Shown: piece by piece, positions 13,184 to 64,000 of the stretch
Layout: each line of letters starts with the position of its first letter
Numbering within the stretch: position 1 is the first letter of the stretch
Assembly (NCBI GenBank): GCA_001898465.1
Contig: MKTX01000015.1
Location: forward strand, 227,412 to 291,411
Direction of reading: 5' to 3'
Source of the DNA: Sphingobacteriales bacterium 39-19
GTDB lineage: Bacteria > Bacteroidota > Bacteroidia > Chitinophagales > Chitinophagaceae
DNA length: 64,000 nt
Made by a program: the position numbers and the translations under genes
Notes under the pieces: generated by a model
Database searches by the model: none
Told to the model about the DNA's origin: nothing
Seen by the model: only the letters and a program-made list of their open reading frames with translations

Positions 13184-13820
13184 AATCCATATTGCGATCG
13201 TAGATGATCACCAAATTATAATTGATGGCCTGGTGGCTTTGCTTAAAAACCATCCCAACCTGAAAATTGTTACATCGGCTAATAGCGGGGAAGAAATACT
13301 ACAACTCATACCAAAATATGAAATAGATATTTTACTCACCGATGTAATGATGCCGGTTATGAGCGGGTATGAATTGGCGAAATTGGTTAGCCGGCAATAC
13401 CCCGGTATAAAAATTATTGCTTTAAGTATGAGTGGACAGGGGCAGGTAGTTCATGATATGATTGAAGATGCTGATATTTCCGGTTATTTATTAAAGCAAA
13501 CAAATGCCACCGAACTGGCAGCAGCTATTGAAAAAGTATATGAAGGTGGCCTTTATTTTCACCCCGAAGTATTACAGGAACTGGAGAAATTATCCAATCA
13601 AAAAAAAGAAGTATCAAAAGTTAATATTACCAACCGGGAAAAGCAATTAATTGCATTGATAGAGAACGAGTATTCCAATAAGCAAATTGCAGAAGAATTA
13701 AATATTTCTTTACTTACGGTAGAAACGCACCGGAAAAATATTCTTCGTAAAACAGGTACCAGCAATGTACTCTCCCTGGTAAAATGGGCCTACGAAAACG
13801 GGGTTCTTAAAAACAAATAA
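13170..13820 (+). CDS. NarL/LuxR-family response regulator
   Basis: Receiver domain (VDDHQ, LLTDVMMPVMSG) and LuxR HTH (NREKQLIALIENEYSNKQIAEELNISLLTVETHRKNI); 14-nt overlap with the upstream kinase. Confidence 0.9.
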   Translation: MKKNKIHIAIVDDHQIIIDGLVALLKNHPNLKIVTSANSGEEILQLIPKYEIDILLTDVMMPVMSGYELAKLVSRQYPGIKIIALSMSGQGQVVHDMIEDADISGYLLKQTNATELAAAIEKVYEGGLYFHPEVLQELEKLSNQKKEVSKVNITNREKQLIALIENEYSNKQIAEELNISLLTVETHRKNILRKTGTSNVLSLVKWAYENGVLKNK

Positions 13821-13888
13821 ATACCTATTAGCAGGTATTTTTAAAATACATGTGGCAGATATCTTTGTCTTCAAAAATTATCAACCGC

Positions 13889-15280
13889 ATGAAAAAAGTA
13901 TTTTTATTTATTATCTCCCTGGTAAGTATCACCGGTATGGCTATTGCCAATGATGTAGTGGTAACCAATGTATCGCTCATCAATCAAAATACATCTGGCC
14001 CGTTAAATACGCATTATTCCGATGTGCAGTTTAGTATAAGCTGGAAGAATAGCTGGCGTACCAGTACCAATGAATCGAATTACGACGGGTGCTGGGTGTT
14101 TATAAAATACCGGAAGCAAAGCACTTCAGTATGGCTGCATGCTACATTAAATATGAGCGGGCAGGTATCTCCCGCCGGAAGCGTGGTAAAACCTGTTGCC
14201 GATGGCAAAGGTGCTTTTGTGTATCCCAGCGCCAATGGGATAGGGGATGTAAATTATAACAATGCCACATTGCGATGGAATTATGGCAGCGATGGCGTTT
14301 TAGATAATGAGAAAGTAGAAATAAGAGTGTATGCAGTAGAAATGGTAAATGTTCCGCAAGGATCTTTTAACCTGGGTAATTCTTCTTTAGAATCTTATCA
14401 TTTTAAAGATGGCGCCAGCGGAAGCTGGTTTCCTGTTACCAGCGAAAATGCAATAAACTGTGGTACAGCCCCGGGCCAGTTAAATACCGATTATTATTTT
14501 ACTTCTTTACCTGCTATCCCGGCAGCCTATCCAAAAGGATACAATAGCTATTGGATCATGAAATATGAATTTAGCAATCAACAATACCTTGACTTTTTAA
14601 ATACATTAGATCAAACCAGTGCCAATGCATTAAATTCAATTGGCGCTACAGGATCAGTTCCAAACATGGTTACTACTTTTCCCGAAAGAGCAGCCGTGGG
14701 CTTCACTTCACTTAATATCCTGTCCTGGTTAGACTGGGCAGCTATGCGGCCCATGACGGAATTTGAATATGAAAAAGCTTGCCGGGGCGCCAACAATACC
14801 CCCTCACCGCTTGAATATGCATGGGGAAATACTACACTCACTACAATTTCAGGGGGTACTAATATAGGTGCCAATAATGAAACCTGGTTAAATGGCAATG
14901 CTAATTATGTAACCGGTGGGCCTTATACAGCAATGCGCTGCGGAGCCCTCGCTACAGCTACCAGTAACAGAACACAAAGCGGTGCCAGCTTTTATGGCGT
15001 GATGGAAATGAGTGGAAATGCTTCAGAACTTACTGTTTGCGCAAATAATAATGGCACTGCATTTACCGGTAACCATGGCGATGGTGTATTGGATGCGCAG
15101 AGCAATGCCAATGTTCCCGGCTGGCCCAGCCTTACGAATGATTTGTCAATAATTATAAGAGGGGGGTCATTTGCATCTGTTTATGCTAATCTACAGATCT
15201 GCGATCGCAGTGCGGGCGTAATATATGTAAGTTCTTCTTATGTTGGCTTTGGCGGACGAGGGGTACGTACTGCTGAATAA
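13889..15280 (+). CDS. SUMF1/formylglycine-generating-enzyme-like domain protein, exported
   Basis: Signal peptide from the ATG at 13889; WLDWAAMRPMTEFEYEKACRGAN and C-terminal IIRGGSFAS...GGRGVR pattern. Confidence 0.8.
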   Translation: MKKVFLFIISLVSITGMAIANDVVVTNVSLINQNTSGPLNTHYSDVQFSISWKNSWRTSTNESNYDGCWVFIKYRKQSTSVWLHATLNMSGQVSPAGSVVKPVADGKGAFVYPSANGIGDVNYNNATLRWNYGSDGVLDNEKVEIRVYAVEMVNVPQGSFNLGNSSLESYHFKDGASGSWFPVTSENAINCGTAPGQLNTDYYFTSLPAIPAAYPKGYNSYWIMKYEFSNQQYLDFLNTLDQTSANALNSIGATGSVPNMVTTFPERAAVGFTSLNILSWLDWAAMRPMTEFEYEKACRGANNTPSPLEYAWGNTTLTTISGGTNIGANNETWLNGNANYVTGGPYTAMRCGALATATSNRTQSGASFYGVMEMSGNASELTVCANNNGTAFTGNHGDGVLDAQSNANVPGWPSLTNDLSIIIRGGSFASVYANLQICDRSAGVIYVSSSYVGFGGRGVRTAE

Positions 15281-16480: not shown

Positions 16481-18112
16481 ATGATGGATATGAATTTTAA
16501 CAAGAATGAAGATGCTATGAAAATGGCCTGGAGCCGGGTAAAAAAGCATTTAGAGATAATATACCAGGGGGGTGGCGCAAAAGCCATCGCAAAGCAAAAA
16601 GAAAGGCACAAACTCACAGCCCGGGAGCGTATTGCATACCTCTGCGATGAAGGCAGGCCCTTTACCGAATTGGGCGCTTTTGCCGGTTTTGAAATGTATG
16701 CCGAACATGGCGGCTGCCCCGCTGCGGGTACGGTAAGCGGGTTGGGATGGGTGAGTGGCAGGCAATGCATGATCATAGCAAACGATCAAACTGTAAAAGC
16801 CGGGGCCTGGTTCCCGATTACAGGTAAAAAAAACCTGCGTATGCAGGAAATTGCCATGGAAAACAGGCTGCCCGTAATTTATATTGTAGATAGTGCCGGC
16901 GTGTACTTACCCATGCAAGATGAAATATTTCCTGATAAAGAACATTTTGGCCGCATTTTCAGGAACAATGCAAGAATGAGCGCAATGGGTATTACACAAA
17001 TTGCAGCAGTAACAGGCGCCTGTGTTGCCGGGGGCGCATACTTACCCATTATGAGCGATGAAACCCTGATGGTAGAAGGCAACGGATCTATTTTTTTAGC
17101 AGGCCCTTACCTGGTAAAAGCAGCTATTGGCGAAGATGTAGATGCCGAAACCCTGGGCGGAGCCGAAACCCATAATGCCATTTCCGGTATTGCAGATTAT
17201 AAATGCAAAACAGAAGAAGAATGTTTAGACCAGGTAAAGAAAATTATTTCTAAGCTGGCAAAACCCGCATCAGCAGGATTCAGCAGAATAGCGCCGGTAA
17301 ACCCGGCCGCACCAGTTGAAAACATATATGGCATTATGAGCGAAGACAATACTAAACCTTATGATGTACTCGATATTATTCATTGCATGGTAGATAATGA
17401 CAGCTTCGATGAGTTTAAAAAAGAATATGGAAAAACAATTATCTGCGGCTATGCCCGTATTGAAGGATGGGCTGTAGGAATCGTTGCCAACCAACGCTTA
17501 ATTGTAAAAAGTAAAAAAGGGGAAATGCAACTGGGTGGCGTAATCTATAATGATAGTGCAGACAAAGCTGCCCGTTTTATTTTAAACTGCAATCAAAAGA
17601 AAATACCACTTGTATTTTTGCAGGATGTAACCGGCTTTATGGTAGGTAGCCGGAGCGAACATGCGGGCATCATAAAAGATGGGGCAAAATTAGTAAATGC
17701 AGTTGCCAATTCGGTAGTACCTAAAATTACCATCATTACCGGTAACAGTTATGGAGCCGGCAATTATGCCATGTGCGGTAAGGCTTACGATCCCCGTTTT
17801 ATTTATGCCTGGCCTACGGCAAAAATTGCAGTGATGGGGGGTGAGCAGGCTGCTAAAACAATGCTTCAAATTCAAGTAGGCGGTATGAAGGCAAAAGGCA
17901 AAGAAGTTACCGAAGCAGAAGAAAAAGAAATACTAAAAAAAATTACAGACTCTTATCAAAAGCAAACCACGCCTTATTATGCAGCAGCCCGGCTTTGGGT
18001 AGATGCCATAATTGACCCCGCAACTACAAGGCAGCATATTGCTGAAGCATTAATTGCTGCAGATCAGCAAAACGATATCCCCGAATTTAAAACCGGCGTG
18101 TTCCAGGTATAA
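16481..18112 (+). CDS. Acyl-CoA carboxylase, carboxyltransferase beta subunit
   Basis: RERIAYLCDEG, TGACVAGGAYLPIMSDE, GFMVGSRSEHAGIIKDGAKLVNAV, GNSYGAGNYAMCGKAYDPRF; ATG at 16481 preferred. Confidence 0.9.
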   Translation: MMDMNFNKNEDAMKMAWSRVKKHLEIIYQGGGAKAIAKQKERHKLTARERIAYLCDEGRPFTELGAFAGFEMYAEHGGCPAAGTVSGLGWVSGRQCMIIANDQTVKAGAWFPITGKKNLRMQEIAMENRLPVIYIVDSAGVYLPMQDEIFPDKEHFGRIFRNNARMSAMGITQIAAVTGACVAGGAYLPIMSDETLMVEGNGSIFLAGPYLVKAAIGEDVDAETLGGAETHNAISGIADYKCKTEEECLDQVKKIISKLAKPASAGFSRIAPVNPAAPVENIYGIMSEDNTKPYDVLDIIHCMVDNDSFDEFKKEYGKTIICGYARIEGWAVGIVANQRLIVKSKKGEMQLGGVIYNDSADKAARFILNCNQKKIPLVFLQDVTGFMVGSRSEHAGIIKDGAKLVNAVANSVVPKITIITGNSYGAGNYAMCGKAYDPRFIYAWPTAKIAVMGGEQAAKTMLQIQVGGMKAKGKEVTEAEEKEILKKITDSYQKQTTPYYAAARLWVDAIIDPATTRQHIAEALIAADQQNDIPEFKTGVFQV

Positions 18113-52426: not shown

Positions 52427-52513
52427 AACGAATAATGCCTGCTACTACTATTATCACATTTTTTGGGTGTGGGTTATTGTATAAGTTTACATCATAACTT
52501 AAAAAATAAATTT

Positions 52514-53242
52514 ATGAAATTACGTAATGCAGTCTATGTATTAGCAACTGTTTTCCTTGTTTTATCTGTCAGTTGCAAAAAAGATAGCACCCCTGGAGAT
52601 CCCTACAAATGCACTACTTGTAAAACTACGCCCGATGCCCTGGCAGCTAATGATGCGAGCAGCAAAGGGGTTTACAAAGGAGTAGTGATTGGTTCTACAG
52701 GTACCATTTATTTTAACATTGCCAATAACGGTAGTACCATCAATGCCGTTATGGTATTAGATAATGTATCTACCACGCTTACTGCTTCGGTAAGCTGGGT
52801 TGCCGGTATATCTTATGTGTCACCCTTTACCGGAACCATCAATGGGTCACCGGTGGTTATTACATTCCAGGTAGATGCCAACGGGCAAAACCCGGTGATA
52901 TTAACTTCATCCATCCCCGGCCACCCGAGTGCCCAGTTCACTTTAGTGAAGGAATTATCCACTTCGTTAATTGAATGTTTTGAAGGTACCTATACCTCTA
53001 CCAGACCTGAAACCGGTACTTTCAATTTATTGCTTTCCCGGTCACTGGGCCGTTTTGGCGGATCCTCCAGGGAAACCGGTTCCACTACCAGCGAAGATAT
53101 TGATGAAGGCACCATTGATGCAAGTGGCAATTTAATTTCTAATGGCCAACCCATGGGCCATTTAGACGGCGATGTAATAACCGGTACTTTCCACGATTCA
53201 CAGGGTAATACGGTTACGATAAATGCCCACCGAACTTTATAA
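52514..53242 (+). CDS. Hypothetical lipoprotein
   Basis: MKLRNAVYVLATVFLVLSVSCKKD lipobox; ATG at 52514. Confidence 0.6.
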   Translation: MKLRNAVYVLATVFLVLSVSCKKDSTPGDPYKCTTCKTTPDALAANDASSKGVYKGVVIGSTGTIYFNIANNGSTINAVMVLDNVSTTLTASVSWVAGISYVSPFTGTINGSPVVITFQVDANGQNPVILTSSIPGHPSAQFTLVKELSTSLIECFEGTYTSTRPETGTFNLLLSRSLGRFGGSSRETGSTTSEDIDEGTIDASGNLISNGQPMGHLDGDVITGTFHDSQGNTVTINAHRTL

Positions 53243-53548: not shown

Positions 53549-53575
53549 GAAAAAGCCCCCGTCAAAGTCGAGGGC
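53549..53575 (-). terminator. Terminator of candidate tracrRNA
   Basis: Minus strand GCCCTCG-ACTTTGA-CGGGGGC-TTTTTC. Confidence 0.8.
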
Positions 53576-53640
53576 AACTTAATGTTTTCACAACGGGATA
53601 AACCCTTATTGCGATTTGCTTCGTTGTAAAAATAGATATA
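53549..53640 (-). ncRNA. Candidate tracrRNA, divergent from cas9
   Basis: Minus strand reads ...ACGAAGCAAATCGCAATAAGGGTTTATCCCGTTGTGAAAACATTAAGTTGCCCTCGACTTTGACGGGGGCTTTTTC. AAGCAAATCGCAAT (complement of 53608-53621) pairs over 14 positions, including 2 G-U wobbles, with crRNA GTTGTGATTTGCTT. Terminator stem GCCCTCG/CGGGGGC plus U-tract. 5' end not defined. Confidence 0.85.
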
Positions 53641-53662: not shown

Positions 53663-56600
53663 ATGAGTAAAAAAATTTTAGGACTTGATCTTGGAACTAC
53701 TTCAATTGGTTGGGCTTTTGTAAGAGAAGCTGAAGATTTTCAGGAAGAATCATCCATAGAAAGGATAGGCGTGAGAGTAAATCCATTAACAACAGATGAA
53801 CAAATAAATTTTGAAAAAGGGAAGCCTATATCTGTAAATGCAGATCGCACCCTTAAACGTGGAGCAAGACGCAACTTACAACGATACAAACAACGCAGAA
53901 CTAACCTCATACAATTATTAAAACAATATAAAATAATAAATGAAAATACAATTCTAGCAGAAGACGATAAAAATACAACGCACAGTACTTATGCATTACG
54001 GGCAAAAGCAGTATCTGAAAAAATAAGCAAAGAGGCCTTTGCCAGAGTTTTGTTGATGATTAATAAAAAAAGGGGGTATAAAAGCAGCCGGAAAGCCAAA
54101 AATGAAGATGAAGGGCAAGCCATAGATGGAATGTCAGTTGCAAAAAGATTGTATGAGGAAGATATAACTCCGGGGCAACTTTGCCTGCAATTGCTGAAAG
54201 AAGGTAAAAAAAAATTACCAGATTTCTATCTTTCTGATCTGCAAGCAGAACTTGAAAAAATCTGGAATTTTCAGAAAAAATTCTATCCGGAAATATTAAC
54301 TGATGAATTTAAAAAAGAAATTGAAGGAAAGGGACAACGAGCAACATCAGCAAGTTTTTGGGCTAAATATAAATTTAATACAGCTGAAAATAAAGGTTCA
54401 AGAGACGAAAAGAAAATGCAAGCATGGGAATGGAGAAGCAAAGCGATAAATACACAACTTACAAGAGAAGAAGTAGCATATGTAATTACTGAAATCAACA
54501 ATAATATTAATAATTCAAGTGGCTACCTTGGTGCAATCAGTGATAGAAGCAAAGAGCTTTATTTTAATAAAGAAACAGTTGGAGAGTATTTATTCAGGCA
54601 ATTACGCTACAGTCCTCATACAAGAGTAAAGAATCAAGTATTTTACCGGCAAGATTACTTAGATGAATTTGAAACTATTTGGGAAAACCAATCAAGATAT
54701 CATAACGAACTGACTAATGAACTGAAATCAGAAATAAGGGATGTAGTAATATTTTATCAGAGAAAATTAAAATCTCAAAAGGGCTTGATAAGCTTTTGTG
54801 AGTTTGAAAGCAAGCAAATTGAGATTCAAAAAGATGGAAAGATTGTAAAGAAAATAATTGGATTAAAAGTTTCGCCTAAGTCCTCACCATTATTTCAGGA
54901 ATTTAAAATATGGCAAATACTGCAGAACCTGGAATTTACAAATAAAGAAACTAAGGAAAAGAAAGTACCAGATTTTGAAGCAAAAAATCTTCTTTTTGAA
55001 GAACTCAATATTAAGGGAAACTTAAAAGGTGAAAAGGCGATTGAAATATTAGGATATAAACCAAAAGAATGGTTGGTAAATTATAAAGAATTAGATGGGA
55101 ATCGTACTAACCAGGTGTTATATGAAGGATACTTAAAGATATTGGAAGTAGAAGGTTATGATATTAAGGATTTACTAAAAATAAAATCAAATAAAGATGA
55201 AGTTAATCTTTCAGAATTATCAAAGCCTGTTTCTGAAATAAAAGATTTAATAAAATCAATCTTTGAATCCCTAAATATTAATACAGCCATACTCGACTTT
55301 AATCCTGAATTAGAAGGAAAAGATTTTGAAAGACAAGCATCTTACCAGTTATGGCATTTATTATATTCATATGAAGGCGACAATTCTAATACGGGCAACG
55401 ATGAATTGTATAGGCTATTATATCAAAAATTCGGGTTTGGTAAAGAGCATGCCCAAATTTTAGCTAATTTATCGTTTTCACAAGATTACGGGAGTTTGAG
55501 TGCCAAAGCAATGCGAAAAATTTATCCTTTCATTAAAGAGAATAGTTATAGTGAAGCTTGTTCACTTGCCGGTTACAATCATTCATCCTCTATTACAAAG
55601 GAAGAAAATGACAAAAGAGAATTAAAAGAAAAATTGGAATTGCTTCCTAAAAATAGTCTTCGCAATCCTGTAGTTGAAAAAATTCTGAATCAGATGGTAA
55701 ATGTCATAAACGCCATCATTGCAGACCCTTCCATGGGAAGGCCAGATGAGATTCGGATTGAACTAGCAAGGGAATTAAAGAAAAACGCAGCTGAAAGGGC
55801 AGAAATGACAATACATATTAATAAAGCAAAATCTGAGCATGATAATTACAGGAAAATACTTACTACCGAATTTGGAATACCCAACCCTACTCGAAATGAT
55901 ATAATCAGGTATAAATTATATGAAGAGTTAAAAGTAAATGGTTACAAAACACTTTATTCTAATACATATATACCAAGAGAGAAGTTATTTTCAAAGGAAT
56001 TTGACGTAGAACATATTATACCTAAGGCATTATTATTTGATGATAGTTTTTCTAATAAAACAATTTGTGCAAGACAGGAGAACTTAGATAAGGGTAACAA
56101 AACAGCTTTCGATTTTATTCAGTCTTTCTATGGAAAGGAAAAATTTGAAGAATATTTACAAAGAATTGAGAGTCTTGCAAAAATTAAAGAAGGTGATACA
56201 TTCGTAATTAGTAAAGCGAAGTATAAAAAACTTTTACTACCAGAAATCGAAATAGGAGAGGGATTTATAGAAAGAGATTTGCGCAACAGCCAATATATTG
56301 CCAAGAAGGCCAAAAGTATGCTGCTGGATATATGTAAAACAGTTGTCCCAACAACTGGAAGCATTACTGACCGTTTACGAGAAGACTGGGGACTCATTAA
56401 TATTATGCAGGAACTGAATTTTGAAAAATATAAAAAATTGGGTTTGATTGAAATGGTTGAGAAAAAAGATGGTAGTTTCAAAGAACGTATTACAGATTGG
56501 ACCAAACGCAATGATCATCGCCATCATGCTATGGATGCTTTAACAGTTGCATTTACAAAGCATAATCACATTCAGTATCTTAATTATCTGAATGCCCGTA

Positions 56601-57877
56601 AAAATGAAAACCATAAAATGCATGGGAATGTAATTGCAATAGAACAAAAAGAAACGGAACTTCTTGTAGATAGTGTAGGTAAAAGAAAGAGGAAGTTTAA
56701 ATTGCCTATATCTAATTTTCGGGAAGTTGCCAAAATGCATTTAGAAAACATTTTGGTTTCCTATAAAGCCAAAAATAAAGTTGCAACTAAAAACAAGAAC
56801 CGTTTTAAAACAAAAAATGGGGAGAAAGTTAAAATAGAACTAACTCCGAGAGGGCAACTGCATAAGGAAACTGTATATGGCAAAATGAAAAAATATGAAA
56901 CTAAAGAAGAAATAATTGGTTCTAAATTTGATGAAGCAACGATATTGAAAGTAGCCAATCTTGAACAACGAAATGCATTACTCCAAAGATTAAAAGAGAA
57001 TAACAACGACCCTAAAAAAGCATTTAGTGGAAAAAATAGTTTAAAAAGCAATCCCCTCTATTATGGGGTTGATAGCAAGCCAATACCTGAGAGGATAAAG
57101 ATTGTTTGGTTGGAAGATGATTATACCATTCGAAAAGAAATTACACCAGATTTAAAAATTGATAAAGTAATAGATATTGGAATTCGGCGTATCCTTGAAA
57201 ATAGATTAGCAGAATTCAATGGAAATGCAAAAGAAGCTTTTTCAAATCTTGAAAAAAATCCTATTTGGCTAAATGAAGGTAAAAGAATTGCGATAAAAAG
57301 AGTTACCATTAGTGGCGTAAAAAATGCCGAAACACTGCATTATAAAAAAGATCATTTAGGCCATGAAATGCTTGATAAGCAGGGGAAAAGAATACCTGTA
57401 GATTTTGTTAGTACAGGTAACAATCATCATGTTGCAATATACAAAGATGATAAAAGTGATTTACAAGAAAAGGTTGTATCATTTTATGAAGCTGTAGAAA
57501 GAATAAATCAAGAATTACCCATAATTGATAAATCTTTTAACCATGATTTAGGCTGGCAATTCCTTTTTACGATGAAACAAAATGAGTATTTTGTCTTCCC
57601 GAGAGATGGTTTTGACCCTTATGAAATTGATTTATTAAATCCTGATAATTATAAAATAATTAGTCCCAATCTATTTAGAGTACAAAAAATTGCTACTAAA
57701 AATTACGTATTCAATCATCATCTTGAAACAAAAGCAGTTGATGGAGAATTATTAAAAACTAAAAAAGATCTATCTGATATAACTTACCGCTTTATTCAAA
57801 CACCTGTTAATCTCAAAAATATTATTAAAGTTCGTATAAACCATATTGGTCAAATCGTAAAAATTGGAGAATATTAA
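53663..57877 (+). CDS. cas9: Type II-C Cas9 (1404 aa)
   Basis: RuvC-I KKILGLDLGTTSIGWAFV; Arg-rich bridge helix RTLKRGARRNLQRYKQRRTNLIQLL; RuvC-II EIRIELARELKK; HNH FDVEHIIPKALLFDDSFSNKTI; RuvC-III DHRHHAMDALTVAFT. Confidence 0.98.
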   Translation: MSKKILGLDLGTTSIGWAFVREAEDFQEESSIERIGVRVNPLTTDEQINFEKGKPISVNADRTLKRGARRNLQRYKQRRTNLIQLLKQYKIINENTILAEDDKNTTHSTYALRAKAVSEKISKEAFARVLLMINKKRGYKSSRKAKNEDEGQAIDGMSVAKRLYEEDITPGQLCLQLLKEGKKKLPDFYLSDLQAELEKIWNFQKKFYPEILTDEFKKEIEGKGQRATSASFWAKYKFNTAENKGSRDEKKMQAWEWRSKAINTQLTREEVAYVITEINNNINNSSGYLGAISDRSKELYFNKETVGEYLFRQLRYSPHTRVKNQVFYRQDYLDEFETIWENQSRYHNELTNELKSEIRDVVIFYQRKLKSQKGLISFCEFESKQIEIQKDGKIVKKIIGLKVSPKSSPLFQEFKIWQILQNLEFTNKETKEKKVPDFEAKNLLFEELNIKGNLKGEKAIEILGYKPKEWLVNYKELDGNRTNQVLYEGYLKILEVEGYDIKDLLKIKSNKDEVNLSELSKPVSEIKDLIKSIFESLNINTAILDFNPELEGKDFERQASYQLWHLLYSYEGDNSNTGNDELYRLLYQKFGFGKEHAQILANLSFSQDYGSLSAKAMRKIYPFIKENSYSEACSLAGYNHSSSITKEENDKRELKEKLELLPKNSLRNPVVEKILNQMVNVINAIIADPSMGRPDEIRIELARELKKNAAERAEMTIHINKAKSEHDNYRKILTTEFGIPNPTRNDIIRYKLYEELKVNGYKTLYSNTYIPREKLFSKEFDVEHIIPKALLFDDSFSNKTICARQENLDKGNKTAFDFIQSFYGKEKFEEYLQRIESLAKIKEGDTFVISKAKYKKLLLPEIEIGEGFIERDLRNSQYIAKKAKSMLLDICKTVVPTTGSITDRLREDWGLINIMQELNFEKYKKLGLIEMVEKKDGSFKERITDWTKRNDHRHHAMDALTVAFTKHNHIQYLNYLNARKNENHKMHGNVIAIEQKETELLVDSVGKRKRKFKLPISNFREVAKMHLENILVSYKAKNKVATKNKNRFKTKNGEKVKIELTPRGQLHKETVYGKMKKYETKEEIIGSKFDEATILKVANLEQRNALLQRLKENNNDPKKAFSGKNSLKSNPLYYGVDSKPIPERIKIVWLEDDYTIRKEITPDLKIDKVIDIGIRRILENRLAEFNGNAKEAFSNLEKNPIWLNEGKRIAIKRVTISGVKNAETLHYKKDHLGHEMLDKQGKRIPVDFVSTGNNHHVAIYKDDKSDLQEKVVSFYEAVERINQELPIIDKSFNHDLGWQFLFTMKQNEYFVFPRDGFDPYEIDLLNPDNYKIISPNLFRVQKIATKNYVFNHHLETKAVDGELLKTKKDLSDITYRFIQTPVNLKNIIKVRINHIGQIVKIGEY

Positions 57878-57891
57878 AAAATAAAATGATA

Positions 57892-57925
57892 GTGGTTTCG
57901 TTAGGTATTGGTAAAACCACCAATA
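57892..57925 (+). promoter_or_regulatory. Possible competing hairpins between cas9 and cas1
   Basis: GTGGTTT (57892-57898) / AAACCAC (57914-57920) versus TATTGGT (57906-57912) / ACCAATA (57919-57925). Confidence 0.35.
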
Positions 57926-57928
57926 TCC

Positions 57929-58825
57929 ATGATAAAGCGGACTCTTTATTTTGGGAACCCTGCGTATTTAAAAACCAATAACGACCAGCTTGTTATTGAT
58001 ATGCCCAATGCTGTTGAATCAAAATCAACACCCATTGAAGATATCGGCTTGCTGGTGCTGGACCACCAGCAAATTACCATTACACAAGCCTTACTGGCTA
58101 AATTATTAGCCAATAATACGGCCGTTATAACCTGCGATAATACCCACCATCCCACCGGCATGATGCTAAGCCTCGACGGGCATAGCCTGCAAAGCCAGAA
58201 ATTCCGGGCGCAGCTCGCTGCTACCATCCCGCTAAAAAAACAACTCTGGCAACAAACCGTAATAGCTAAAATAAAAAACCAGGCAGCCCTGCTGGCCGGT
58301 ACCAGGCAGGAAAATAAAATATTAATAAACCTTGCTTTAGAGGTAAAAAGCGGCGATGCTGAAAACTGCGAAGCACAGGCCGCTGCCTATTACTGGAAAA
58401 AACTGTTCCCGGGTTTCCTGGCATTTAAAAGAGACCGGTATGGGCCGCCCCCCAATAATTTACTGAATTATGGCTATGCTATCCTTCGGGCATCTGTAGC
58501 CCGTAGCCTGGTGGCAAGCGGCCTGCTTCCTACCCTGGGCATACATCACCGCAACCAGTACAATGCCTATTGCCTGGCCGATGATATCATGGAGCCATAC
58601 CGCCCCTATGTGGACTATACCGTTTACCATATTGTGATGAATAATGGTAAGTATCTTGAGATGACTCCTTCTATGAAAAAAGATTTACTGGCCATACCTG
58701 CCATGGATGTAACCATCGATGGCAAAAAGAGCCCCCTGATGAATGCCGTGCAGCGAACCACGGCCAGCCTGGCAAAATGTTATGAAGGCTGTTCCAGGAA
58801 AATATTATATCCTGAAATGGAATGA
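57929..58825 (+). CDS. cas1: CRISPR-associated endonuclease Cas1 (type II)
   Basis: MIKRTLYFGNPAYLKTNNDQLVI..., LLNYGYAILRASVARSLVASGLLPTLGIHHRNQYNAYCLADDIMEPYRPYVD; ATG at 57929. Confidence 0.95.
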   Translation: MIKRTLYFGNPAYLKTNNDQLVIDMPNAVESKSTPIEDIGLLVLDHQQITITQALLAKLLANNTAVITCDNTHHPTGMMLSLDGHSLQSQKFRAQLAATIPLKKQLWQQTVIAKIKNQAALLAGTRQENKILINLALEVKSGDAENCEAQAAAYYWKKLFPGFLAFKRDRYGPPPNNLLNYGYAILRASVARSLVASGLLPTLGIHHRNQYNAYCLADDIMEPYRPYVDYTVYHIVMNNGKYLEMTPSMKKDLLAIPAMDVTIDGKKSPLMNAVQRTTASLAKCYEGCSRKILYPEME

Positions 58826-58843: not shown

Positions 58844-59188
<345 letters not shown>

Positions 59189-59266
59189 AAAAATCATTCA
59201 AAAAAGTAGCTGGTGGGGCCATATCATTTTTGTAAATTTCCTAATTAAAACGGGGTGAACAGGAAT

Positions 59267-59293
59267 AAAAAATGCTCAATCAGAGCATTTTTT
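59267..59293. terminator. Bidirectional terminator between cas2 and the array
   Basis: Perfect AAAAAATGCTC-AATCA-GAGCATTTTTT; U-tract on both strands. Confidence 0.8.
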
Positions 59294-61108
59294 TAATTCT
59301 AAAACTTAGTTCAAGATCATTAAAATCAGCAACTTATAAGGTTCGTACTGTGAAAGAACTAAGCTACTAAAAAATTTGAAAGCAAATCACAACAAGCGGC
59401 TCCGGTTTGTGTTATTAATAAAACTGTGAAAGAACTAAGCTACTAAAAAATTTGAAAGCAAATCACAACTAAATATACTTTTTTCATTTTTATAATTTAC
59501 TGTGAAAGAACTAAGCTACTAAAAAATTTGAAAGCAAATCACAACATCGGCCTTACAGCGTTGAGCCAAAAGGAACTGTGAAAGAACTAAGCTACTAAAA
59601 AATTTGAAAGCAAATCACAACTCAGTTACTACCTGCGCTCAGTGAATGACTACTGTGAAAGAACTAAGCTACTAAAAAATTTGAAAGCAAATCACAACAT
59701 AGCATCCCCGTTATAATTGGCGCCACTAACTGTGAAAGAACTAAGCTACTAAAAAATTTGAAAGCAAATCACAACCAAAATGCTAATAACGGTACTGCGT
59801 TAAAAACTGTGAAAGAACTAAGCTACTAAAAAATTTGAAAGCAAATCACAACCACGCCTCCGGTGGATAGCTTCACTGCTTTACTGTGAAAGAACTAAGC
59901 TACTAAAAAATTTGAAAGCAAATCACAACTATTCTTCCACGGCATGACCGGCAACGGCAACTGTGAAAGAACTAAGCTACTAAAAAATTTGAAAGCAAAT
60001 CACAACTCCAGTGGGAAAGTTGTTATTTTTGGCTCTACTGTGAAAGAACTAAGCTACTAAAAAATTTGAAAGCAAATCACAACCTCCAGATCTTAGCAGT
60101 TTCTGCAGCAATTACTGTGAAAGAACTAAGCTACTAAAAAATTTGAAAGCAAATCACAACAACCGCAAATACAACTGTAATCTCAGTGGAACTGTGAAAG
60201 AACTAAGCTACTAAAAAATTTGAAAGCAAATCACAACACAAAACGTCCGGACTCGTTAAAGAATAAACTGTGAAAGAACTAAGCTACTAAAAAATTTGAA
60301 AGCAAATCACAACAGTCATATAATTAACTGTTTTTTCATTAAACTGTGAAAGAACTAAGCTACTAAAAAATTTGAAAGCAAATCACAACCTCAGTTACTG
60401 GCTGGCAATATACTGGCGAACTGTGAAAGAACTAAGCTACTAAAAAATTTGAAAGCAAATCACAACTGTTGTTCAATTCAAACGGTGCTGTGTACTACTG
60501 TGAAAGAACTAAGCTACTAAAAAATTTGAAAGCAAATCACAACTACCGTGTAAATGTATATTTTCAGTTCCGACTGTGAAAGAACTAAGCTACTAAAAAA
60601 TTTGAAAGCAAATCACAACAGTAATGTAATTAACTGTTTTTTCATTAAACTGTGAAAGAACTAAGCTACTAAAAAATTTGAAAGCAAATCACAACAAAGA
60701 AAATATGCGGCACTTATAATTAAAAACTGTGAAAGAACTAAGCTACTAAAAAATTTGAAAGCAAATCACAACATACACCCAGCAAGTATTTCCATGCCTG
60801 TGACTGTGAAAGAACTAAGCTACTAAAAAATTTGAAAGCAAATCACAACACCAATGGTTCACATACTGCAACGATACAAACTGTGAAAGAACTAAGCTAC
60901 TAAAAAATTTGAAAGCAAATCACAACTACCTCCTAATTTCTGCCTGGCCCTACCTAACTGTGAAAGAACTAAGCTACTAAAAAATTTGAAAGCAAATCAC
61001 AACTAATCATGTTATGTAATTTGACCTAATCGACTGTGAAAGAACTAAGCTACTAAAAAATTTGAAAGCAAATCACAACAAACGTGCAGTGCGGAACAGG
61101 GTTATTTG

Positions 61109-62517
61109 ACTGTGAAAGAACTAAGCTACTAAAAAATTTGAAAGCAAATCACAACCCTTACTGTTCCCACGACCTGGTAGTCGTTACTGTGAAAGAACTA
61201 AGCTACTAAAAAATTTGAAAGCAAATCACAACTAAACTTTTGTACGAGCTACTTCACTTAAAACTGTGAAAGAACTAAGCTACTAAAAAATTTGAAAGCA
61301 AATCACAACTGTATCTTTCAATATATGCGGCCCGTTTGGACTGTGAAAGAACTAAGCTACTAAAAAATTTGAAAGCAAATCACAACTACTTGCTACTGCC
61401 TTAAATGTTGCTAAGGACTGTGAAAGAACTAAGCTACTAAAAAATTTGAAAGCAAATCACAACTAACAAAGCCAGATCCATCGAATAAGACAACTGTGAA
61501 AGAACTAAGCTACTAAAAAATTTGAAAGCAAATCACAACTTACATTCAACAAGCAGCAACGGTGCATCTACTGTGAAAGAACTAAGCTACTAAAAAATTT
61601 GAAAGCAAATCACAACATAATCACCTGCTTCCCAAACTACATCAGTACTGTGAAAGAACTAAGCTACTAAAAAATTTGAAAGCAAATCACAACATACCTT
61701 TAAAATTATATGCACTTTCTCCGACTGTGAAAGAACTAAGCTACTAAAAAATTTGAAAGCAAATCACAACATTGAATGAGTTGGAGATTGGCTATCCCGA
61801 ACTGTGAAAGAACTAAGCTACTAAAAAATTTGAAAGCAAATCACAACGCCCCAGCCGGGTTACGCCCTGGGCTATAAACTGTGAAAGAACTAAGCTACTA
61901 AAAAATTTGAAAGCAAATCACAACCCAGGAAGAATTTTACCAGGGCTGTTTTGAACTGTGAAAGAACTAAGCTACTAAAAAATTTGAAAGCAAATCACAA
62001 CGCAGCCTGACGGGACCATATTTAAAATACACTGTGAAAGAACTAAGCTACTAAAAAATTTGAAAGCAAATCACAACACCTCCGAATTAATTTTATATGC
62101 AAAATCAACTGTGAAAGAACTAAGCTACTAAAAAATTTGAAAGCAAATCACAACAATGTGGCATAATGGGTACGCTAAGGCAATACTGTGAAAGAACTAA
62201 GCTACTAAAAAATTTGAAAGCAAATCACAACTACTTCGTAGATTGATAAATATTGTACAGGACTGTGAAAGAACTAAGCTACTAAAAAATTTGAAAGCAA
62301 ATCACAACTTGTAACCATTCATTCTTTTTACTTCTACAACTGTGAAAGAACTAAGCTACTAAAAAATTTGAAAGCAAATCACAACGAGCAAACTTCGCAG
62401 TATGTAAGATGGGGTACTGTGAAAGAACTAAGCTACTAAAAAATTTGAAAGCAAATCATCCCTACGACATAGTAGGGATGAAAGAACTAAGCTACTAAAA
62501 AATTTGAAAGCAAATCA
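61109..62517. repeat. Copy 1 of 1409-bp duplicated array block (17 spacers plus hairpin)
   Basis: Spacer order CCTTACTG... through GAGCAAAC... and hairpin is repeated exactly at +1443 bp. Confidence 0.9.
62456..62481. repeat. Hairpin insert 1 in CRISPR array
   Basis: TCATCCCTAC-GACATA-GTAGGGATGA, 10-bp perfect arms; replaces spacer and 5 bp of both flanking repeats. Confidence 0.9.
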
Positions 62518-62551
62518 CAACCTCAGTTACTGGCTGGCAATATACTGGCGA

Positions 62552-63960
62552 ACTGTGAAAGAACTAAGCTACTAAAAAATTTGAAAGCAAATCACAACCC
62601 TTACTGTTCCCACGACCTGGTAGTCGTTACTGTGAAAGAACTAAGCTACTAAAAAATTTGAAAGCAAATCACAACTAAACTTTTGTACGAGCTACTTCAC
62701 TTAAAACTGTGAAAGAACTAAGCTACTAAAAAATTTGAAAGCAAATCACAACTGTATCTTTCAATATATGCGGCCCGTTTGGACTGTGAAAGAACTAAGC
62801 TACTAAAAAATTTGAAAGCAAATCACAACTACTTGCTACTGCCTTAAATGTTGCTAAGGACTGTGAAAGAACTAAGCTACTAAAAAATTTGAAAGCAAAT
62901 CACAACTAACAAAGCCAGATCCATCGAATAAGACAACTGTGAAAGAACTAAGCTACTAAAAAATTTGAAAGCAAATCACAACTTACATTCAACAAGCAGC
63001 AACGGTGCATCTACTGTGAAAGAACTAAGCTACTAAAAAATTTGAAAGCAAATCACAACATAATCACCTGCTTCCCAAACTACATCAGTACTGTGAAAGA
63101 ACTAAGCTACTAAAAAATTTGAAAGCAAATCACAACATACCTTTAAAATTATATGCACTTTCTCCGACTGTGAAAGAACTAAGCTACTAAAAAATTTGAA
63201 AGCAAATCACAACATTGAATGAGTTGGAGATTGGCTATCCCGAACTGTGAAAGAACTAAGCTACTAAAAAATTTGAAAGCAAATCACAACGCCCCAGCCG
63301 GGTTACGCCCTGGGCTATAAACTGTGAAAGAACTAAGCTACTAAAAAATTTGAAAGCAAATCACAACCCAGGAAGAATTTTACCAGGGCTGTTTTGAACT
63401 GTGAAAGAACTAAGCTACTAAAAAATTTGAAAGCAAATCACAACGCAGCCTGACGGGACCATATTTAAAATACACTGTGAAAGAACTAAGCTACTAAAAA
63501 ATTTGAAAGCAAATCACAACACCTCCGAATTAATTTTATATGCAAAATCAACTGTGAAAGAACTAAGCTACTAAAAAATTTGAAAGCAAATCACAACAAT
63601 GTGGCATAATGGGTACGCTAAGGCAATACTGTGAAAGAACTAAGCTACTAAAAAATTTGAAAGCAAATCACAACTACTTCGTAGATTGATAAATATTGTA
63701 CAGGACTGTGAAAGAACTAAGCTACTAAAAAATTTGAAAGCAAATCACAACTTGTAACCATTCATTCTTTTTACTTCTACAACTGTGAAAGAACTAAGCT
63801 ACTAAAAAATTTGAAAGCAAATCACAACGAGCAAACTTCGCAGTATGTAAGATGGGGTACTGTGAAAGAACTAAGCTACTAAAAAATTTGAAAGCAAATC
63901 ATCCCTACGACATAGTAGGGATGAAAGAACTAAGCTACTAAAAAATTTGAAAGCAAATCA
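62552..63960. repeat. Copy 2 of 1409-bp duplicated array block
   Basis: Same spacer order and hairpin as 61109-62517. Confidence 0.9.
63899..63924. repeat. Hairpin insert 2 in CRISPR array
   Basis: TCATCCCTAC-GACATA-GTAGGGATGA. Confidence 0.9.
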
Positions 63961-63983
63961 TCCCTACGGCATAGTAGGGATGA
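63958..63983. repeat. Hairpin insert 3 (loop variant) in CRISPR array
   Basis: TCATCCCTAC-GGCATA-GTAGGGATGA, 59 bp after insert 2. Confidence 0.9.
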
Positions 63984-64000
63984 AAGAACTAAGCTACTAA

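Follow-up and report, generated by a model that had tools for sequence, protein, structure and literature searches.

An exact duplication of 17 spacers, together with a hairpin unit and a repeat core, was found at the hairpin end of the CRISPR array in the window, that is, the whole 64,000-nt stretch of DNA that was analysed (G000:C15:227412-291411). Judged from sequence comparison, the most probable reading, to which we assign a probability of roughly three in four, is that the old-end block was duplicated by recombination or replication misalignment between repeats, and that the hairpin was a pre-existing terminal cap and not the agent of the rearrangement.

The array is part of a type II-C Cas9 system, in which cas9 (type II, 1404 aa; 53663–57877, + strand; TIGR01865, E 1.5e-142, and PADLOC Cas9 models), cas1 (type II; 57908–58825, + strand; TIGR03639, E 4.3e-92) and cas2 (58853–59188, + strand; TIGR01573, E 7.8e-21) are adjacent and a fourth cas gene beside them is absent. 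A 259-aa ORF (52463–53242), with a LuxR-type response regulator on one side and cas9 on the other, had no Pfam or PADLOC match. The cas2-proximal end is formed by a leader (59189–59346, + strand) with an AT-rich motif of the form CATTTTTTT..TTCTAAAA..CAAA, which adjoins cas2 in many related arrays of the family as well. The array itself (59347–64000, − strand as given by the tracrRNA) has 61 repeat cores in the window and continues in contig C10; its repeat is 47 nt long (ACTGTGAAAGAACTAAGCTACTAAAAAATTTGAAAGCAAATCACAAC on the + strand), its spacers are 29–30 nt, and an Rfam search of the array returned only a sub-threshold CRISPR repeat match. Comparison of 40 spacers with phage records yielded a single 21-nt match (E 6), and four patterns built from spacers or spacer pairs matched zero viral contigs. 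Only two positions distinguish spacer 13 (from 60314; AGTCATATAATTAACTG..) from spacer 17 (from 60620; AGTAATGTAATTAACTG..), as though the array had acquired two versions of a single target.

To orient the array, we used a predicted tracrRNA upstream of cas9 (53549–53639, − strand), recognized by its sequence, duplex and tail fold and composed of an anti-repeat (GAAGCAAATCGCAA), a stem-loop and a terminator-like hairpin with a T run. Since this anti-repeat can form a duplex with the 5′ end of the repeat as read on the minus strand (−19.6 kcal/mol), crRNAs are predicted to be read on the minus strand, so that the hairpin end would hold the repeat that comes first in the crRNA sense. Because the leader-like motif beside cas2 is common to many family members, we take the cas2-proximal end to be where spacers are acquired and the hairpin end to be the old, leader-distal one; in related arrays the far end is degenerate, whereas the leader at the cas2-proximal end is conserved. 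On the minus strand, many related repeats carry TATCTTTG, which resembles the Bacteroidota −7 box, a known motif, and the window's repeat has just TAGCTTAG. The orientation agrees with reports that type II-C arrays acquire at the 3′ end and have promoters in their repeats (PMC12638026; PMC12080349; Flavobacterium columnare, PMC8092290).

The duplication can be read directly from the sequence, which confirms the observation of the earlier note. The 1409 bp at 61109–62517 recur at 62552–63960 (both − strand) as an exact run with zero mismatches and an offset of 1443; the block holds 17 spacers (units 24–40 equal units 43–59) plus one hairpin unit (41 equals 60), its content being spacers 24–40 (S24–S40), a 59-bp hairpin unit (a 20-nt palindrome joined to a 39-nt core) and the core of the following repeat. 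The spacer ahead of the second copy (unit 42; 62522–62551, − strand) is an exact match to spacer 14 (S14; 60390–60419, − strand), its sole other source, and only in copy 1 are S14 and S24 separated by spacers 15–23 with their repeats (60420–61108, − strand). With its ordered identical spacers, maintained unit spacing and joints within repeats, the block has the features of a segmental spacer-block duplication. Chance is excluded because the 17 spacers share one order, and the same order speaks against independent re-acquisition, in which each of the 17 spacers would have been taken up twice; as the hairpin unit, which is not a spacer, was copied along as well, this explanation can practically be dismissed. 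The duplicated S14 also matches the organism's chromosome at 29 of 30 bases (G000:C7:536590-536621, in a 714-aa ORF), which may therefore be a self-target, mismatched close to the guide 3′ end.

Inspection of the joints placed them in the repeats. Both copies had been described as ending at the hairpin, which is not the case: identity runs 39 bp past the hairpin, through the next 39-nt repeat core, and stops after the core, where copy 1 continues with CAAC and S14 and copy 2 continues with hairpin G. The repeat at this joint (62479–62521, − strand) is visibly chimeric, its left end being of the type that follows a hairpin (GGGA-TGAAAG; GGGATGAAAG) and its right end normal (CAAC). From the make-up of its two ends, this chimera is the expected trace of a putative crossover or template switch that joined the repeat following hairpin A to the one preceding S14. 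The second joint, from S14 to S24, lies inside a normal repeat and equals a deletion of nine units.

We infer that the ancestral order would have been S14, S15–S23, S24–S40, hairpin A, hairpin G and hairpin G, followed by a truncated last repeat, and that the repeat core after hairpin A would have paired with the repeat just ahead of S14; the product would run from S40 through hairpin A and the chimeric repeat into S14, and on through a second S40 to hairpin A and hairpin G. Copy 2 would have lost spacers 15–23 through a second repeat–repeat event, or the crossover partner may already have been without them. The model proposed earlier, a larger duplication from S14 to the hairpin followed by loss of nine spacers, is a shortest history and is backed by the chimeric repeat, but it shares this rank with an equally short variant, a single unequal crossover with a sister array that would already have been without S15–S23.

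The assembly itself offers a different explanation, namely that the strain or sample contains a single copy of the block, or a mixture of arrays with and without S15–S23, whose paths were joined up during assembly. Inexact repeats a few hundred bases long (70–640 bp) are common to many contig ends, which suggests reads too short for an exact 1.4-kb repeat; with such reads, copy number and order may be the assembler's choice. The contig breaks merely ~60–100 bp past the second hairpin A, and the junction graph would be equally satisfied by the reversed copy order, with the deletion in copy 1. The overlaps between contig ends revealed no constant k-mer size, their lengths being irregular (41 and 48 nt), and a search for LSU rRNA as a means of counting copies found none in this assembly. 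Against misassembly stand the two new junctions, from hairpin A to S14 and from S14 to S24, which must stem from reads or chimeras and are less prone to misassembly because each (~125 bp) fits within one read, as well as the comparable block duplications in two single-contig genomes (L177 and L190). The misassembly alternative raised in the earlier note is therefore still open for copy number and order and less likely for the junctions, and as an account of the whole we consider it unlikely.

Block duplications of this kind were not confined to the window. In a comparison set of about 100 related arrays, drawn from Cas9 relatives and from the family and perhaps including a few duplicates, blocks of at least three spacers were duplicated in 8, including this one, and the 17-spacer block is the longest in the set. 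The duplicated blocks comprise 10 spacers in L177, 5 in L190, 5 at the array end in L184 and 10 in L074, and others were found in L049, L064 and L175. In a same-genus genome, an array is interrupted by an insert of ~2.3 kb within a repeat (L145:10845-13163). Duplicated spacer blocks and misalignment between repeats have been described in the literature (PMC8047081, PMC11472070), and the present block resembles those reviewed (PMC8047081) and counted by SpacerPlacer (PMC11472070) in its ordered contiguous units, its joints inside repeats and its secondary deletion.

None of the seven duplications in relatives has a hairpin alongside, which argues that a hairpin is dispensable for the process. 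This bears on the suggestion that the hairpin promotes the rearrangement, whereby replication stalling or cleavage at the palindrome would lead to template switching and the blocks would end beside it. One joint does lie at most 39 bp from a hairpin with a 10-bp stem and a DNA fold of −9.4 kcal/mol, but the break falls inside the CRISPR repeat that follows and not in the hairpin itself; at the second joint, S14/S24, there is no hairpin, and the stem is short. A driving role of the hairpin was therefore not upheld and seems very improbable.

A better reading is that the hairpin is the array's terminal unit and was carried inward; its terminal place can be read from the sequence. It has the sequence TCCCTACG[A/G]CATAGTAGGGA, and accordingly exists in A and G forms: hairpin A (TCCCTACGACATAGTAGGGA; 10-bp stem including the flanking TCA/TGA of the repeats) at 62459–62478 in copy 1 and 63902–63921 in copy 2, and hairpin G (TCCCTACGGCATAGTAGGGA) at 63961–63980, with two further G units located by genome search in contig C10 (126958–126977 and 127017–127036). 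These five copies, obtained with up to 3 mismatches allowed, are all in this array. The window stops at the end of contig C15, which is joined by a 41-nt overlap to the end of C10, where hairpin G, a core and a second hairpin G are followed by the last repeat, broken after TTTGAAAG. The terminus of the array is a tandem of at least three hairpin units, one of the A form and two or more of the G form. According to PMC8047081, rearrangements seldom involve the terminal unit, whereas here the terminal hairpin unit was copied inward. Some end-repeat inserts in related arrays belong to small dispersed palindrome families and in this resemble the short palindromic interspersed repeats of bacterial genomes; the window's hairpin, in contrast, has no other copy in its own genome. 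Palindrome clusters (TCCCTACAG..CTGTAGGGA) of a shape resembling the window's hairpin occur in another genome of the family, outside any array examined (G259:C16:27484-27620, C23:33656-34591 and C30:118646-118805).

What such a terminal unit might do is suggested by its position. CRISPR arrays hold one more repeat than spacers, and in type II-C arrays the surplus repeat is the old one, which would therefore yield an extraneous crRNA with flanking DNA as its guide. The hairpin sits in the very place from which, on the crRNA strand, the first repeat would draw that flanking DNA: the stem-loop, a 10-bp stem with its flanking bases, fills the guide position, and GTTG is lost from a repeat that retains its promoter half. 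The hairpin guide alone folds at −10.1 kcal/mol, tighter than 39 of the 40 spacers. The hairpin-adjacent repeat is without its first four bases (GTTG), its promoter half being whole, and owing to this loss its predicted tracrRNA duplex is weaker (−12.6 kcal/mol, compared with −19.6 kcal/mol for the normal repeat). Both sequence marks of extraneous-crRNA suppression, a structured guide and damage to the repeat that comes first in crRNA sense, are present, and on this basis the stem-loop and the GTTG loss together should silence the useless crRNA. According to PMC12080349, type II-C systems counter extraneous crRNAs by terminators, guide hairpins and repeat mutations, and in a cell-free test a hairpin in the guide kept C. 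jejuni Cas9 from targeting. The window's array is like the suppression described there in the first repeat concerned, the old end, the hairpin at the guide position and the damaged tracrRNA-pairing end; it differs in its tandem hairpin units within repeat-spaced DNA, and the relatives differ in the mid-repeat inserts of their end repeats, neither of which appears in the part of the paper available.

Among the 67 readable far ends of related arrays, both repeat halves were present in 40, and the promoter half was kept with the tracrRNA half lost or split in about 26. An automatic call of L072 as the sole reverse case proved to be an artefact of the inserts in that array. The far-end bias alone is no proof of selection, as erosion from the outside inward would produce an equal bias. 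Mid-repeat inserts were found at the far end of L028, L039, L042, L070, L072, L090, L146, L149, L169, L182 and L195, in several of these arrays in more than one successive unit, and none was found elsewhere in about 2800 full repeats; the apparent internal split repeats of the automatic survey were in reality spacers resembling a repeat start and followed by an intact repeat. The inserts of L149, L169, L146, L070 and L072 fold well (z about −3 or below), and those of L042, L182, L090 and L195 have no good fold. In Pedobacter cryotolerans, the last repeat runs into a perfect 23-bp hairpin of its own sequence and then a T run (L035:17568-17650).

The insert seen in Bacteroidales, a structured palindrome of 65 nt whose stem shows compensatory changes, is situated in the end repeats of three arrays (L070:16931-16995 and 17406-17470; L072:13560-13625, 13708-13772 and 13853-13918; L090:17099-17163), and it had no Rfam match in these loci. 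A covariance model found it dispersed in other genomes, partly as a 66-bp tandem, with 32 copies in the L071 genome, and the initial idea that it is specific to CRISPR ends, based on a 14-mer seen only there in three genomes, was dropped in view of those copies. As this palindrome family is dispersed, the end-repeat inserts likely arose by short palindromes landing in the end repeat.

Palindromes in or beside the first repeat (in crRNA sense) of Bacteroidota type II-C arrays may represent a recurrent, selected cap that arises repeatedly from unrelated palindromes and that was here multiplied and moved inward by recombination, a tentative reading to which we give roughly one chance in three. 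Such a cap would keep the promoter half of the repeat apart from the half that pairs with the tracrRNA, or it would block the false guide. The copying of a block by recombination between repeats is a known type of event, and the hairpin cap is its less familiar part. The rearrangement carries its own marker, since a terminal cap now lies inside the array, so that both the joint and the direction can be read. The survey also raises the question of why many Bacteroidota type II-C arrays have an insert, often palindromic, in their end repeat when none of the ~2800 full repeats elsewhere contains one.
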